This document shows, piece after piece, positions 16,100-23,234 of a stretch of DNA of 63,643 nt. How positions within the stretch are numbered: position 1 is the first letter of the stretch; each line of letters opens with the position of its first letter. Below the pieces are notes generated by a model. The model saw only the letters and a program-made list of their open reading frames with translations. It made no database searches and was not told where the DNA came from. Location: contig NZ_JAUXNK010000077.1 in NCBI RefSeq assembly GCF_030682845.1, positions 1 to 63,643 on the forward strand. Reading direction: 5' to 3'. Origin of the DNA: Methanolobus sp. (GTDB taxonomy: Archaea; Halobacteriota; Methanosarcinia; Methanosarcinales; Methanosarcinaceae). The position numbers and the translations under genes are program-made.

Positions 16100-16528
16100 A
16101 TGGCAGGAACAGAATGGGAACCAAAGATAGTGGCTTTCTGCTGCAACTGGTGCAGTTACGGAGGCGCGGATACGGCAGGCATGGGAAGGTTCCAGCAACC
16201 CTCTTCCCTGAGGATCATCAGGGTGATGTGTTCAGGGCGTATTGACCCTATGCATGTTTTCAATGCTTTTCTTGAAGGAGCTGATGCCGTACTTGTGACC
16301 GGATGTCACCTTGGCGACTGCCATTACGTTAACGGCAACTACAAAGCCCAGGTCAGGTACCAGTTCCTCGAAGAGATGGTCAGGGAGCTTGGGCTTGAGC
16401 CTGAAAGACTCCAGCTCAACTGGATAAGCGCCAGTGAAGGAGAAAAGTTTGCAAATTTCATAAGGGATGTCACTGCGCAGATAAAGCAACTGGGCCCGAG
16501 CCCTCTGAAGCCCGAAGGAGTGAACTAG
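16100..16528 (+). CDS. mvhD: MvhD-like electron-transfer subunit (hydrogenase delta family)
   Basis: MvhD is the 2Fe-2S protein linking an electron-input module (hydrogenase, formate dehydrogenase or F420 dehydrogenase) to HdrA. The 142-residue product has the family cysteines in [16 protein letters not shown], the VMCSGRIDP block, and GCHLGDCHY, and a typical length. It begins 2 bp after hdrA and ends flush against the next ATG. The same domain is fused to the C-terminus of HdrA2 at 24.6-27.0 kb, so the window holds both arrangements. Confidence 0.93.
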
Positions 16529-17680
16529 ATGGTTGGAATTGGAGACAAGCTGCTTGGCTATGCTACTAACCCGGATGTCCGCAACAGGGGCGCATCAGGA
16601 GGACTTGTCACTGCCGTACTGGCTGCGGCTCTTGAAAAGGGCATGGTTGAGGGTGTGGTCGTGCTAAAACGTATAGATGAATATGAAGCGATACCGGTTA
16701 TCACAGATGATGTGCAGGAGGTACTTGCTTCCGGAGGCAGTATGCATGCAGTGCCCGTGAACCTGACAAAGCACGCTGTGGGCAGGAAGATAGCCATGCC
16801 AGGCAAACCCTGTGATGTCAGGGGTGTCATCGAGCAGGCTAAGCGTAACGGTGTTGACCTTGAGAACACCTACATCGTAGGACTTAACTGCGGAGGGTCC
16901 ATGCATCCCGTGGTCACCAGGGAGATGCTCATCAGGATGTATGAGATCGACCCGGAAGATGTCGTAGGCGAGGAGATCGAAAAGGGCAAGCTCATTTTCA
17001 AAACAAAGGATGGAGAAGAGAAGGCCATATCCATTGATGAGCTCGAGGAAGCCGGATATGGAAGACGTGAGAACTGCCGTTATTGCACAATTAAGATACC
17101 AACGAATGCCGATCTGGCATGTGGTAACTGGGGTGTCATCGGGGAGCTGGCTGGAAGTGCCACTTTCTGCGAAGTAATGAACGAGAAGGGCAAGCGCCTT
17201 CTTGATAATGCTATTGAGGCCGGGTTTATTGAGGTGCAGCCTGCGGACGAGAAATCCATAGCCATCAGGAATAAAGTCAACAGTGCTATGCTTAAGCTCG
17301 GAGATGAATGGAAAGGAAGGCTCCTTACTGAGATCCATGACCAGGAGCGCCTCACTTACTATATAGAGCAGTTCGCAGACTGTATCGATTGTGGCGCCTG
17401 CAGGGAGGTCTGCCCTGTATGCACGTGCGGTGAGGACTCAAAATGCACCATGTTCCATAGTCTCGCGGATAATTATAAGATGAGCATGTATCACATGGTA
17501 CGCCTTCTCCATTTATCTGACAGCTGTATCGGGTGTGGACAGTGTTCTGATATCTGTCCAGTAGATATTCCCGTCACAACTATTTTCAGGCGCTTTGCAG
17601 ACCCTGCCCAGAAGAAGCGAGATTATTCGCCTGGCATGGATCTCCAGAGACCGCCCTTCCTGGAGTTGATGCTGAAATGA
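16529..17680 (+). CDS. F420 dehydrogenase beta subunit (FrhB/FdhB/FpoF family)
   Basis: The 383-residue protein belongs to the coenzyme F420 hydrogenase/dehydrogenase beta family, which binds FAD and exchanges hydride with F420. Signs are the N-terminal [18 protein letters not shown] block, [26 protein letters not shown], and the Fe-S element [21 protein letters not shown]; the C-terminal part adds ferredoxin motifs [12 protein letters not shown] and [12 protein letters not shown]. The order beside MvhD and a FdhA-like gene resembles FdhB of hydrogenotrophs. In this context it most plausibly feeds electrons from F420H2 to MvhD and HdrA. It abuts mvhD and overlaps the next gene by 4 bp. Confidence 0.88.
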
Positions 17681-19137
17681 AGGAAACTATCTACCAGACA
17701 GTGTGCCCCGGCTGTGGCATTGGCTGCGGCCTCTACATCAGGGAAAATGGCAATGGCTCCGTAAGCATCGACTTTTTGAAGAGCAGCCCGGTGAACCTAG
17801 GAAAACTCTGCAGATTCGGAATGAAGCTGCCTTATTACTACTCCAGGCCTGCCTCAAGCAAAACTGAAGGCGTGGTATCCGGCGCTGAAGAAGCTGTCAA
17901 GGCAGCGGCTTCAAGGCTTAAAAATGCCGGAAAAATTGCCATGCTCTCTGCAGGCAACACTACCTGCGAAGAGCATATAGCATTCACAAGGCTCGCAGAG
18001 ACCCTGGGTACTGTGGTACACACCGGCATTCCTGTCTACCAGGAACTTCCTTCAGAGTGCCACCCCCATCTCGAAGGCATGCCATTGGCTGAAATAGAGA
18101 ATGCGGAGAAGATTGTACTATTCATAGATCCCTATGTGCAATATCCACTGCTTGTCAGGAGACTGCTGGTTGCCAGGCGAAACGGTGCACACATCATATC
18201 AGCAGGCACAAAAGAACTGCATCTTGCGCATGAGAACAGGGATCTCTCACCGGAACAGTACGCAGAACTGGAACTTGACAGTAACTCGGTCATTATCGCT
18301 GATGTGCATCCGCATACAGAGTCCTGTCATACGAAGCAGCTGCTCAACCTTGCACTTGAGACCGGAGCAAGGATACACTTTATGAAACCTTTCATAAACA
18401 GCGAAGGCGCCAACAGGCTCGCAAGGGACAAGGCCGGAATGATGGGTATCTCACATATCATGGATGAGATTGAAAAAGGGGACATCAAGACCCTCTTCCT
18501 GCTTGATAGTGACCCTCTGGAGATGATGCCGGATTCTGATAGGACAGCAAATGCGCTGAATAAACTTGACAATCTTATCGTGATAAGCTCAAGGGACAGC
18601 CCAATCACTGAAATTGCAAATGTGGTGATAGCCACTGAACCTCTATATCGCAAAAGAGGCACCTTCATCAACGCCGAAGGGAAACTCCGGGAGAACAGCG
18701 GGCAGGAAGTTGCCGGCATAGATGCAATGTCCCTGTTGAGCAGAGAACTGGGATCAGAGGGCTTTGAGTACAGGCAGATGCACGGGTACCTGCATGAAAG
18801 GATGATAGAGACCCTGGCTAATGAGAACAGGAAGCCTGAGTATGGAATAATGCAATGTGCTCCTGTACAGCACAATGGTGCATGCATATTGAAATACCTG
18901 TTTAACCCCTTCATGTGGGCTAACCAACCAGATGACAATGATTTCGTGCTCCTTAACATGAATATGGTCAGGAGTCTGAAACTCAGGAAAGGTGGCATGG
19001 TCAGGCTGGATTCTGAGAAAGGAAGCATGAAAATGCGGTATCGTGTGGAAAGGGTGCCTGATGGCATGATTTTGACTGCCAGGAAACTGCAGGTAGCAAC
19101 AGGAACGAACACAACTGTCAAAGTGGAGGGATGCTGA
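17677..19137 (+). CDS. Molybdopterin oxidoreductase-like subunit (FdhA/FwdB-like), Mo ligand not seen
   Basis: The 486-residue product resembles formate dehydrogenase alpha or FwdB in outline. It starts with a 4Fe-4S motif (CPGCGIGC at residues 10-17, then KLCRFGMK), has the fold-core stretches IVLFIDPYVQYP and LFLLDSDPLEMM, the ITEIANVVIATEPLYRKRGTF block, and a C-terminal dinucleotide-binding-like domain (LRKGGMVRLDSEKG). FdhA is usually about 680 residues, so this is short. Where a Cys or Sec ligand to Mo/W would be expected, after the SAGNTTCEEHIAF segment, the sequence reads HTGIPVYQELP with no Cys in the usual context. It may be a structural or electron-relay subunit, as NuoG is, rather than a formate dehydrogenase. 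It overlaps its neighbours at both ends. Confidence 0.75.
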   Translation: MKETIYQTVCPGCGIGCGLYIRENGNGSVSIDFLKSSPVNLGKLCRFGMKLPYYYSRPASSKTEGVVSGAEEAVKAAASRLKNAGKIAMLSAGNTTCEEHIAFTRLAETLGTVVHTGIPVYQELPSECHPHLEGMPLAEIENAEKIVLFIDPYVQYPLLVRRLLVARRNGAHIISAGTKELHLAHENRDLSPEQYAELELDSNSVIIADVHPHTESCHTKQLLNLALETGARIHFMKPFINSEGANRLARDKAGMMGISHIMDEIEKGDIKTLFLLDSDPLEMMPDSDRTANALNKLDNLIVISSRDSPITEIANVVIATEPLYRKRGTFINAEGKLRENSGQEVAGIDAMSLLSRELGSEGFEYRQMHGYLHERMIETLANENRKPEYGIMQCAPVQHNGACILKYLFNPFMWANQPDDNDFVLLNMNMVRSLKLRKGGMVRLDSEKGSMKMRYRVERVPDGMILTARKLQVATGTNTTVKVEGC

Positions 19138-19325: not shown

Positions 19326-19400
19326 TATTAAGTTTGTTATATGTGTAATAGATATTGGTATAAAAAAATTAAATTTATTACATCATTAAAAACTGAATAA

Positions 19401-19430
19401 CATATATATCAATAAACCTATCTCTTTTCT
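19401..19430 (+). promoter_or_regulatory. TATA box for eanB operon; probably leaderless mRNA
   Basis: An AT-rich run with TATATAT at 19403-19408 lies 23-28 nt before the eanB ATG, the normal distance from TATA box to transcription start in archaea. No Shine-Dalgarno-like sequence is present in the intervening CAATAAACCTATCTCTTTTCT, so the message may begin at or near the start codon. Confidence 0.55.
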
Positions 19431-20693
19431 ATGGGAGAAATTACAACTGAAGAGTTATCTATAAATTTAGATAATTATAAGTTAATTGATATAAGATCCG
19501 TTGATGCTTATAATGGATGGAAGGAGGGTGGGGAAAAAAAGGGTGGACACATCAAGGGTGCAAGATCACTACCTTATAAATGGTCACACTATATTGACTG
19601 GATAGAGATTGTCAGAAATAAAAAGCTCCTGCCGGAAGATTCTCTGCTTATCTATGGTTATGACAGGGACAAGACAAAGGAAGTGGCAAAGCAGTTTGAA
19701 AAGGCAGGATACCCTGATGTGACTGTTTTCAACTCATTTTTAGAATGGGCGCAAAAGGACCTGCCAATGGAAAACCTTGAAAGGTACAGACAACTGGTCT
19801 CAGCCGACTGGCTTAACCAGTTGATCACAACAAACAATGCTCTTGAATATGACAATGATAAATTCGTGGTATGTCATGCTCACTACAGGAATCCTTCAGA
19901 TTATGATGAAGGTCACATTCCGGGAGCAATATCTGTTGACACGAACACCCTTGAATCCCCGCAGACATGGAATCGCCGCTCGCCCGAAGAACTGAAGGAA
20001 GCACTGGAAAGCACAGGAATATCACATGATACGACGGTTATCGTTTACGGAAGGTTCTCCTATCCGAAGAACGAGGATCCTTTTCCGGGAAGCAGCGCAG
20101 GTCATCTGGGTGCAATGCGATGTGTGTTCATCATGCTCTATGCCGGCGTAAAGGATGTCCGCATACTTAATGGCGGTCTTCAGTCATGGCTTGATTCGGG
20201 ATATGATATAACAAAAGAGCCTGCCGAAAGCAATAGGGTCTCTTTTGGTATCGATATTCCACAGAAGCCGGAGATAGCTGTCGATCTTGTGGAAGCAAAA
20301 GAGATACTTTCATCCCCTGACAAAAACCTGGTGTGTGTCAGAAGCTGGAGGGAATATATCGGAGAGATAAGCGGGTATAATTATATTGAGAAAAAAGGCA
20401 GGATCCCCGGAGCAGTGTTCGGGGATTGTGGCTCAGACGCTTATCATATGGAAAATTACAGGAACCTGGACCACACCATGCGCGAATACGGGGAGGTTGT
20501 GGAAAACTGGAAGAAGGTCGGGATCTCTCCTGAAAAACGCAATGCATTCTACTGCGGGACTGGCTGGAGAGGCAGTGAAGCTTTCTTTAACGCATGGCTT
20601 CTGGGCTGGGATAGATCCGCAGTCTATGATGGCGGATGGTTTGAGTGGAGCAACAATGATCTACCTTTTGAGACGGGTGTGCCGGAAGAATGA
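19431..20693 (+). CDS. eanB: EanB-like sulfurtransferase, anaerobic ergothioneine synthase
   Basis: EanB of green sulfur bacteria replaces the imidazole C2-H of trimethylhistidine (hercynine) with sulfur, using a rhodanese-fold persulfide and no oxygen. This 420-residue protein has three rhodanese-like segments (starting near KLIDIRSVDAYNGW, KFVVCHAHYRNP and NLVCVRSWREY). The last carries the active-site loop CGTGWR at residues 375-380. The family's catalytic Cys412 and Tyr353, as I recall them for the Chlorobium enzyme, are 59 residues apart; here Cys375 and Tyr316 (in SGYNYIEKKGRIPGA) are also 59 apart. The eanA-like gene overlaps its end by 4 bp. An ordinary thiosulfate or mercaptopyruvate sulfurtransferase is the alternative, but the triple domain and the neighbour favour EanB. 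Confidence 0.85.
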   Translation: MGEITTEELSINLDNYKLIDIRSVDAYNGWKEGGEKKGGHIKGARSLPYKWSHYIDWIEIVRNKKLLPEDSLLIYGYDRDKTKEVAKQFEKAGYPDVTVFNSFLEWAQKDLPMENLERYRQLVSADWLNQLITTNNALEYDNDKFVVCHAHYRNPSDYDEGHIPGAISVDTNTLESPQTWNRRSPEELKEALESTGISHDTTVIVYGRFSYPKNEDPFPGSSAGHLGAMRCVFIMLYAGVKDVRILNGGLQSWLDSGYDITKEPAESNRVSFGIDIPQKPEIAVDLVEAKEILSSPDKNLVCVRSWREYIGEISGYNYIEKKGRIPGAVFGDCGSDAYHMENYRNLDHTMREYGEVVENWKKVGISPEKRNAFYCGTGWRGSEAFFNAWLLGWDRSAVYDGGWFEWSNNDLPFETGVPEE

Positions 20694-21652
20694 TCATAGA
20701 AGATTTCATGTCAGAGGTCGGAGAAACTTCGATCAGAGAAAAACTGGTAGCTTGCCTGAAGTCCAATCCTAAAACCCTTCCTTGTATCTTTTTCTACGAT
20801 CAGAGTGGATCGGAACTTTTTGAGAAGATAACAAAACTTGAGGAATATTATCCTCCGAAGATCGAGATCCCTTTGCTCAGATCAACAGCCCGGGAATTTA
20901 ACGGGGAGCTTAAGGACTGCGATATCGTAGAGCTTGGGAGCGGGGATTGTTCGAAGATCTCCGTGTTCCTTGATGAGGTTCCGGAAGAATCACGTCAGAC
21001 CATAGTGTATTATCCAGTTGACGTTTCCAGAGAGGCTATAGAGAAATCCGGCCGCACCCTCCAGAAGAAGTATCCTGAAATGGGACTTCATGGGATCAAT
21101 GCTGATTTTCTCGAGCATATTGAAAAGATCCGGGGAAAAAGAAAGAGGCTCTTCTGTTTCTTCGGGAGCACGATAGGTAATCTGACTGAAGCAAAGGCCA
21201 TGGAGTTTCTGAAAAACCTGAACAGTGTAATGAATAAAAAAGACAGGCTTCTTCTTGGAATGGATATGGTAAAAGATATCGATGTAATTGAGAGAGCCTA
21301 CAATGACAGTCAGGGGATCACTGCGAGATTCAATAAGAATATACTGAAGGTTACAAATAGTCATCTCAGAACGGATTTCAATCCTGATGATTTCGAGCAT
21401 GTCGCTTTCTTCAATAAAGCATATTCCCGGCTCGAGATGCACCTGAGAGCAAAAATGGATATGGAAGTGACAAGTCCTCTGCTGAAAGAGAGTATAATAT
21501 TAAAAAAAGGTGAGATGATCCATACGGAAAACTCTCATAAATATACTTCAGGCCATATAAGGAAAATGGCAGATGCTGCAGGGCTTTTCCTGGCAAATAT
21601 CTATACAGATGAGAAAAAGTGGTTCTCTCTTGCTGAAATGGTGAAAAGATGA
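20690..21652 (+). CDS. eanA: Histidine N-alpha-methyltransferase (EanA/EgtD family)
   Basis: The family trimethylates the alpha-amino group of L-histidine with three SAM to give hercynine. The 320-residue length is normal. Family features: FFYDQSGSELFEKITKLEEY near residue 35, the SAM loop VELGSGD at residues 80-86, YYPVDVS, the long CFFGSTIGNLTEA block, LLLGMDMVKD, and near the end HTENSHKY, where Glu280 and Ser282 correspond to the histidine-binding Glu/Ser pair of EgtD. It is flanked by eanB (4-bp overlap) and sufS (4-bp overlap), so all are probably one transcript. No EgtB (oxygen-dependent sulfoxide synthase) is nearby, consistent with the anaerobic route. The start ATG could be the seventh codon (MSEVGETS). 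Confidence 0.9.
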   Translation: MIIEDFMSEVGETSIREKLVACLKSNPKTLPCIFFYDQSGSELFEKITKLEEYYPPKIEIPLLRSTAREFNGELKDCDIVELGSGDCSKISVFLDEVPEESRQTIVYYPVDVSREAIEKSGRTLQKKYPEMGLHGINADFLEHIEKIRGKRKRLFCFFGSTIGNLTEAKAMEFLKNLNSVMNKKDRLLLGMDMVKDIDVIERAYNDSQGITARFNKNILKVTNSHLRTDFNPDDFEHVAFFNKAYSRLEMHLRAKMDMEVTSPLLKESIILKKGEMIHTENSHKYTSGHIRKMADAAGLFLANIYTDEKKWFSLAEMVKR

Positions 21653-22830
21653 CAGATTTCAAGAAAGATTTCCCGATACTTGAAAAAGAGGTATATGGGA
21701 AAAAACTGGTTTACCTTGATAACGCGGCAACGAGCCAGAAACCAGGCTATGTGATTGATACTATCTCTGATTTCTACAGGTCGGATAACAGCAATATACA
21801 TCGGGGAGCGCATTACCTGAGTGAGGTATCAAGTGAAAAGTATGAGAAAGCAAGGGAAAAGGTAAGTGACTTCATAGGCGCTCGTGACCCGGCGGAAGTG
21901 ACATTCACTGCCGGGGCAACAGATTCGATCAACCAGGTTGCATGCTCGCTTGAACCGATCCTGAAGGGAAACGAGGTTCTGATCACCGGTGTTGAGCACC
22001 ACTCAAATATCGTACCATGGCAGCTTGCAGGAGCAAAACTCAGGTCAATCCCAATGGATTCCGATTGTAATTTGCTGACGGATTCCATAGAGATCACGGA
22101 TAAAACAAAACTTATAGCCATATCCCATGCCTCGAACGTCCTTGGTTGCGTCAATCCGATCAAAGAGATAACCGGGATAGCAAAAGACCACGATATCCCT
22201 GTCCTTGTGGATGCGGCCCAGTCGATACAGCATCTGCCAATTGATGTGAAGGATATCGGTTGTGATTTCCTGGCCTTTTCAGGCCACAAGATGTATGCAG
22301 CAACCGGGATTGGCGTGCTTTACACAAGTGAGCGTTTCAGTGATATCATGCCGGCAAGAGGCGGAGGAGGCATGGTTGACAAGGTAACTCTTGAAAGAAC
22401 ATCATACCTGAACCCTCCTTTAAGGTACGAGGCAGGTACGCCTCACATCGCGGGTGCAATAAGTATTGCTGCTGCGATTGATTACATGCAGAATATAGGC
22501 ATGGATAAGATTCGAATGCACGAGCATGATGTATATTCCTACGCAAGGGAAAAACTGCTGGAAACGGATGGTGTGAAAGTTTACGGGAACACTGAAAAGA
22601 TGTGCGGTTCCATCTCGTTCAACCTTGACAATATACATCAGTACGACACAGGAATGATACTGGATAAGATGGGGATCGCTGTCAGGACCGGACATCACTG
22701 CGCCCAGCCATTGATGAGATTCCTCGGAACCGAAGGCACAGTGCGTGCAAGTTTTGCATTGTACAATACTGAAGAAGATGCCGACATGCTGATCGAAGGC
22801 ATCGAAAAAGTAAGGATGATGTATGCATGA
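21649..22830 (+). CDS. sufS: Cysteine desulfurase, SufS type (group II)
   Basis: SufS takes sulfur from L-cysteine with PLP and forms a persulfide that passes to SufE. The 393-residue product is full length. The PLP lysine is Lys214 in FSGHKMYAATG; the substrate region ITGVEHHSNIVPWQ and the active-site Cys351 in RTGHHCAQP identify group II rather than NifS/IscS. It overlaps both eanA and sufE by 4 bp. With no sufB, sufC or sufD here, its placement suggests it charges EanB with sulfur rather than (or as well as) building Fe-S clusters; this is inference from operon structure. Many methanogens lack such desulfurases and use sulfide directly. Confidence 0.93.
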   Translation: MTDFKKDFPILEKEVYGKKLVYLDNAATSQKPGYVIDTISDFYRSDNSNIHRGAHYLSEVSSEKYEKAREKVSDFIGARDPAEVTFTAGATDSINQVACSLEPILKGNEVLITGVEHHSNIVPWQLAGAKLRSIPMDSDCNLLTDSIEITDKTKLIAISHASNVLGCVNPIKEITGIAKDHDIPVLVDAAQSIQHLPIDVKDIGCDFLAFSGHKMYAATGIGVLYTSERFSDIMPARGGGGMVDKVTLERTSYLNPPLRYEAGTPHIAGAISIAAAIDYMQNIGMDKIRMHEHDVYSYAREKLLETDGVKVYGNTEKMCGSISFNLDNIHQYDTGMILDKMGIAVRTGHHCAQPLMRFLGTEGTVRASFALYNTEEDADMLIEGIEKVRMMYA

Positions 22831-23234
22831 GAGATGCTGTCCAGGACGATATCATAAAACAATTCGTTGGCCTTGAATGGCTCGATAGATACGGTCTGCT
22901 AATCTCCTTTGCCAAAGAGCTTAAGCCCATGGATGATAAGTTCAAGACCGAAGAGAACTCAATCAGCGGGTGCCAGTCCAAGGTATGGATCAGGACTTAT
23001 AGAGAGGACGGCAAAATGATCATCAATCTCGATAGTGATGCCATGATCACCAGAGGTATCATTTCTCTTTTACTAAAGGTTGTGAACAACCGCTCCCCTC
23101 AGGATATTCTAAACCTCGACCTGTACTTTATCGAAGAGATCGGCCTGAAGTCTAATTTGTCTCCTGCAAGGGCGGATGGACTGGCGTCGATCATCAGAAG
23201 GATACGGGAAGTGGCTGAGAGGGAGGCAAATTGA
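22827..23234 (+). CDS. sufE: SufE-like sulfur acceptor
   Basis: SufE accepts the persulfide sulfur from SufS and stimulates it. The 135-residue protein has the family signature ENSISGCQSKVW, with acceptor Cys49, and the C-terminal IEEIGLKSNLSPARADGL helix region. Length is typical. It overlaps sufS by 4 bp and closes the eanB-eanA-sufS-sufE operon; hdrA2-polyferredoxin genes converge on it from the other strand 86 bp later. SufE is a bacterial-type protein, so the gene pair may have entered this lineage by transfer, though I see no direct mark of that. Confidence 0.92.
   Translation: MRDAVQDDIIKQFVGLEWLDRYGLLISFAKELKPMDDKFKTEENSISGCQSKVWIRTYREDGKMIINLDSDAMITRGIISLLLKVVNNRSPQDILNLDLYFIEEIGLKSNLSPARADGLASIIRRIREVAEREAN

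Follow-up and report, generated by a model that had tools for sequence, protein, structure and literature searches.

How a methanogenic archaeon might supply sulfur for ergothioneine synthesis is the question raised by a four-gene operon, eanB-eanA-sufS-sufE, of Methanolobus sp. The operon occupies positions 19431-23234 (+ strand) of a 63,643-nucleotide stretch (positions 1-63,643 of contig NZ_JAUXNK010000077.1, assembly GCF_030682845.1), which is referred to here as the window. The source genome (2.87 Mb, 99.8% complete) is that of a Methanolobus, and the nearest eanB loci are from Methanolobus species (92-93% protein identity). We propose that the operon makes ergothioneine without oxygen and that its SufS and SufE are specialized partners of EanB rather than parts of iron-sulfur (Fe-S) cluster assembly, a reading to which we assign a probability of about three in four. 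The sulfur supply role is read from the content and order of the genes, their co-inheritance, the exclusivity of SufE, the distinct clades in which SufE and SufS fall, and the intact catalytic residues. The domain families of the four products are, in order, three copies of Rhodanese, Methyltransf_33, Aminotran_5, and SufE. An initial annotation had described four genes that overlap by 4 bp at every junction, and the coordinates agree, with the overlap being ATGA at each of the three junctions. The features are as follows.

19392-19430, + strand: putative core promoter, with TATA-like CATATATATC at 19401-19410, about 20 nt upstream of the ATG (predicted function)
19431-20693, + strand: eanB, triple-rhodanese ergothioneine synthase (hercynine C2 sulfurtransferase), 420 amino acids (aa), catalytic C375 and Y316
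20690-21652, + strand: eanA (egtD-type), histidine N-alpha-trimethyltransferase, 320 aa, E280/S282
21649-22830, + strand: sufS, group II cysteine desulfurase of the eanB-linked clade, 393 aa, K214 and C351
22827-23234, + strand: sufE, sulfur acceptor of the eanB-linked clade, 135 aa, C49

Within the phylum, SufE occurs together with EanB. The two proteins were found in the identical 19 genomes among 60 relatives. Across 393 genomes of the phylum, SufE exceeded the Pfam cut-off in 24, namely the 23 with a full EanB and one (G018) in which EanB is split by contig ends; in this sample, the distance between the start of eanB and SufE is about 3.4 kb. Fisher tests returned p = 5e-16 for the 60 relatives and p = 7e-39 for the 393 genomes, values that ignore phylogeny and are indicative only, with four genera involved. 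The sole trace of SufE without eanB in the 393 genomes is a 31-residue C-terminal remnant in G136 (L202:1-400), from the genus holding Methanococcoides. This remnant is located downstream of a fragment resembling the 3' end of a tRNA, ARAGORN detected no whole tRNA there, and the genome contains no eanB. It is apparently the relic of a decayed ean operon, perhaps lost at a tRNA site.

Methanogens are not alone in having this arrangement. In a survey of 80 eanB loci, sufS-sufE was found downstream of eanB(-eanA) in Aminicenantes, Phycisphaerae, Thermoplasmata, Omnitrophota, Elusimicrobia, Chitinivibrionales, and Fibrobacter (phyla or groups Thermoplasmata, Aminicenantes, Planctomycetota, Omnitrophota, Elusimicrobiota, and Fibrobacterota). 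The pair follows eanB(-eanA) in ten bacterial or Thermoplasmata loci in addition to those of methanogens, plus a locus that ends before sufE (L021). Seven bacterial loci have sufE adjoining eanB without sufS, at a distance of 10-20 nt (Gemmatimonadetes, Ignavibacteriales, and others) or 131 nt (Caldithrix). The linked SufE is the only SufE in 16 of the 17 non-methanogen genomes with linkage where SufE was found; the exception is Caldithrix, with a second, divergent copy. A chance neighborhood is ruled out by the recurrence across phyla and the exclusive co-occurrence. Among 237 sampled Omnitrophota, SufE is present in five genomes, and the two of these that carry eanB were already in the first survey; as a result, this sample serves as a background rate rather than as an independent test. 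At class level, a search around G084 yielded two eanB genomes only, with the Chlorobium limicola neighborhood outside the sample.

Phylogenetic trees distinguish the linked proteins from their relatives. The eanB-linked SufE sequences form one clade (support 100/99, or 98/100 when E. coli SufE and CsdE are included), as do the eanB-linked SufS sequences (99/93), and both clades are separate from the copies of Suf operons. Together with the exclusive co-occurrence and the eanB-sufE dyads, these clades bear out the earlier view of the SufS-SufE pair as a dedicated supply. The EanB tree contains SufE-linked and SufE-lacking parts, with one Bacteroidota row of unsure placement, and C. limicola EanB is placed in the SufE-lacking part. 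A single alignment column distinguishes EanB of the two parts (A137 versus Pro), from which no docking patch was inferred. The trees fit a single origin of the cassette and subsequent spread; the origin was probably single and the spread lateral. Binning errors in metagenome-assembled genomes (MAGs) could touch individual bacterial rows, although not those of methanogen isolates.

On the basis of these assignments, a pathway from histidine, S-adenosylmethionine, and cysteine to ergothioneine can be proposed that would need no oxygen. EanA would trimethylate histidine to hercynine. SufS would convert the sulfur of cysteine to a persulfide on C351, which SufE would receive on C49. From there, the persulfide would reach C375 of EanB, either directly or via a short-lived small persulfide formed at SufE, and EanB would transfer it to C2 of the hercynine imidazole. 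The step from SufS to SufE rests on known SufS-SufE chemistry and the insertion into hercynine on earlier EanB work, while we infer the SufE-to-EanB hand-over and ergothioneine as the product. There is a precedent in MES of Caldithrix abyssi, an anaerobic ergothioneine synthase that is likewise fed by its own cysteine desulfurase via a persulfide relay (PMC9516567). However, MES is an unrelated, acetylene-hydratase-like and metallopterin-dependent synthase with a fused desulfurase of the IscS/NifS type, and no SufE has been described for it.

We extend this proposal tentatively, at somewhat less than even odds: SufE may be the physiological direct donor of a whole clade of EanB, such that a persulfide relay from SufS through SufE to EanB replaces free polysulfide in archaea and several bacterial phyla. 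Points in favor of direct transfer are the co-inheritance specific to SufE and the occurrence of eanB-sufE dyads without sufS. A second EanB cysteine, C333 (window 20427-20429; C370 in C. limicola), may have a part in sulfur reception; it is invariant in 81/81 EanB sequences and missing from E. coli YnjE. In C. limicola EanB, according to a review, only Cys412 of the five cysteines is required with polysulfide in vitro and C370 is dispensable (PMC9103826).

Several observations weigh against these proposals. The catalytic cysteine of C. limicola EanB sits at the bottom of a 13 A tunnel, which is considered to let polysulfide in but to keep protein persulfides out, and ergothioneine synthesis driven by IscS has been reinterpreted as polysulfide release (PMC9103826). 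According to a 2020 review, ergothioneine had until then gone undetected in archaea (PMC7278568). The surroundings of many eanB loci in Bacteroidota lack sufSE, and the EanB family as a whole therefore needs no linked pair; in these unlinked Bacteroidota, SufE is mostly encoded elsewhere, in several cases close to SufS on the same contig. Finally, the support is genomic, and neighborhood and phylogeny cannot separate direct transfer from a small carrier.

The alternative that survives best takes up the last of these points. SufS-SufE could serve as a local generator of polysulfide or persulfide, in which sulfide or a small thiol would react with the SufE persulfide to give a small species that would diffuse into the EanB tunnel, with no docking of EanB and SufE. 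Polysulfide is the best donor in vitro and the tunnel would accommodate it (PMC9103826), and operon coupling alone would yield the same gene pattern. Still, a single SufE subfamily is retained alongside EanB in several phyla and there are dyads that have no sufS; both are easier to reconcile with a specific partner than with a generic polysulfide source, and we consider a purely diffusive supply doubtful, if well short of implausible. Among the closest known systems is that of C. limicola. Its EanA and EanB (Clim_1148/1149), described by Burn 2017, Leisinger 2019, and Cheng 2020 to the extent that these are cited in PMC7278568 and PMC9103826, are orthologous to the Methanolobus enzymes and retain the catalytic Cys, Tyr, Thr, and Arg. 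Sulfur was provided to C. limicola EanB in vitro by IscS or polysulfide (PMC9103826), whereas the Methanolobus operon encodes its own specialized SufS and SufE.

A second alternative is that SufS-SufE supports SufBC-based Fe-S assembly or general sulfur needs and is merely parked in the ean operon. Both proteins score above the cut-offs of their families: SufS scores 507.7 bits against TIGR01979 (cut-off 475.1), with K214 as the lysine that binds pyridoxal phosphate and C351 as the catalytic cysteine, and SufE scores 136.4 bits against PF02657 (cut-off 27), with C49 as its sole cysteine. SufBCD is the usual client of SufSE. In addition, SufE of Methanosarcinales, reported in 10/132 genomes, has previously been discussed as Fe-S machinery (PMC8351635). 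However, as the initial annotation had recognized, no SufB, SufC, or SufD scaffold gene accompanies the pair in the operon (no search for SufBC was made in the rest of the genome), which sets the locus apart from Suf assembly systems, where SufS-SufE is encoded with SufB/C/D. In a survey of methanogens and related archaea, about 95% are reported to have SufBC (PMC8351635), yet the sampled genomes of the phylum that are without eanB contain no SufE other than the 31-residue remnant. The operon SufE is the only one in the Methanolobus genome, and a separate desulfurase of the NifS/IscS type adjoins a NifU/IscU-like scaffold there. Other desulfurases of this genome are likewise placed beside other acceptors, with a SufS-like protein encoded next to FdhD and another near YcaO-TfuA; among those tested, only the operon copy exceeds the SufS cut-off (507.7 versus 431 and 401 bits). 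The Methanolobus pair shares desulfurase and acceptor families, the catalytic lysine, and the two cysteines with E. coli SufS-SufE and CsdA-CsdE, but belongs to different clades, is encoded in an operon without SufBCD, and has EanB as its predicted partner. With the linked SufE and SufS in clades of their own, a general Fe-S role is strongly weakened and we consider it very improbable.

Group II desulfurases are able to act on selenocysteine. SufS could then act as a selenocysteine lyase, in an operon whose product would be some relative of ergothioneine such as selenoneine or a thiol with further modifications. This is very improbable: SufS scores 179 bits against the selenocysteine lyase model NF040779, far under the cut-off of 525, and an attempt at selenoneine synthesis with EanB failed (PMC9103826).

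The remaining question is whether the first two genes are assigned correctly. The named residues (C375, Y316, E280/S282, K214, C351, and C49) are all at the positions given in the initial annotation, and the spacing of 59 between Y316 and C375 is that of Tyr353 and Cys412 in C. limicola EanB. C375, Y316, T377, and R380 (Cys412, Tyr353, Thr414, and Arg417 in C. limicola) are invariant in 81 aligned EanB sequences. However, C375, Y316, and the CGTGWR loop had been taken as proof of EanB, and this argument fails: E. coli YnjE, also a triple rhodanese, has counterparts of all four residues and the entire loop, so they are not diagnostic. We instead identify EanB by overall identity and its EanA neighbor. 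The protein is 60% identical to C. limicola EanB over 417 aligned residues, and its top solved relatives are the C. limicola EanB structures 6ktv and 6h98 (576-585 bits), followed by YnjE (274 bits). In trees it is placed with the EanB sequences and away from YnjE and other sulfurtransferases; shorter rhodaneses were compared by score only, outside the trees. EanA scores 342.9 bits against TIGR03438 (L-histidine N-alpha-methyltransferase; equivalog cut-off 290.9) and 203 bits against EgtD of the Protein Data Bank, with E280 and S282 as the Glu/Ser residues that bind the amino acid. The pairing is further supported by natural EanB-EanA fusions, found as single 749-aa open frames in two Bacteroidales MAGs (L030:6001-8235; L052:6001-8217); no EanB-SufE fusion was noticed among the open frames of the loci. 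That the first gene encodes a YnjE-like sulfurtransferase (e.g. for molybdopterin), in an operon not for ergothioneine, is hardly credible despite the common loop and tyrosine, given that YnjE is only 39% identical, differs at 18 of the 82 positions invariant among the EanB compared (C333 included), and has no histidine methyltransferase neighbor in the E. coli region examined, whereas eanB directly overlaps such a gene.

The operon is conserved among methanogens. All methanogen loci retrieved share the four-gene order and the 4-bp overlaps, except that SufS and SufE are separated by a gap of 7 nt in L005; two of these loci (L006 and L009) extend past contig ends. Each of the four genes is under purifying selection, with ratios of nonsynonymous to synonymous substitution rates (dN/dS) of 0.07-0.15. 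The TATA-like element is conserved as ACTGAATARCATATATA in Methanolobus loci L085 and L089, and the DNA further upstream is unrelated. An Rfam scan of the operon region returned no match. Upstream, at window positions 16100-19137, are genes for an HdrA2/VhuD C-terminal-like protein, an FrhB-like ferredoxin fusion, and a short (486-aa) formate-dehydrogenase-alpha-like protein; this redox gene set is unusual and seems unrelated to the ergothioneine operon.

Other loci show further variation in gene content. Salinimicrobium (Flavobacteria) loci, including L031, L036, L041, and L047, contain EanB with no EanA, sufS, or sufE nearby. An alternative linked sulfur supply was considered for the Bacteroidota loci and rejected, as the neighbors are NmrA-like, Rieske/glutamate-synthase, FMN-reductase, and DUF427 proteins, with no evident sulfur donor. 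Across Bacteroidota and Thermoplasmata, about 12 eanB loci (L063, L044, L049, L075, L019, L021, and others) encode the DUF427 protein (PF04248, about 94 aa), which is possibly tied to ergothioneine. At L131 (G000:C104), a SufS-like gene lies about 370 bp from YcaO-TfuA (thioamide installation) in divergent orientation, and its product is a possible sulfur donor for YcaO-TfuA modification.

The new part of these findings is the link of sufSE to eanBA, which is wider than methanogens. eanBA itself was already known from methanogens: both enzymes are reported in Methanohalophilus mahii (Burn 2017, as far as it is cited in PMC11993508) and Methanococcoides vulcani (PMC7278568). No report of the sufSE link was found in literature on ergothioneine with SufE or Methanolobus, although earlier mention in Burn 2017, Leisinger 2019, or Cheng 2020 is possible. 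Which sulfur source anaerobic ergothioneine synthesis uses in vivo appears to be unsettled, and the EanB-associated SufE clade offers a candidate donor that can be tested directly. Likewise, the rare SufE proteins of Methanosarcinales, previously counted as Fe-S machinery, gain a different meaning as members of a cassette for oxygen-free ergothioneine that probably arose once and spread laterally. A cysteine-fed version of the pathway could aid microbial ergothioneine production.

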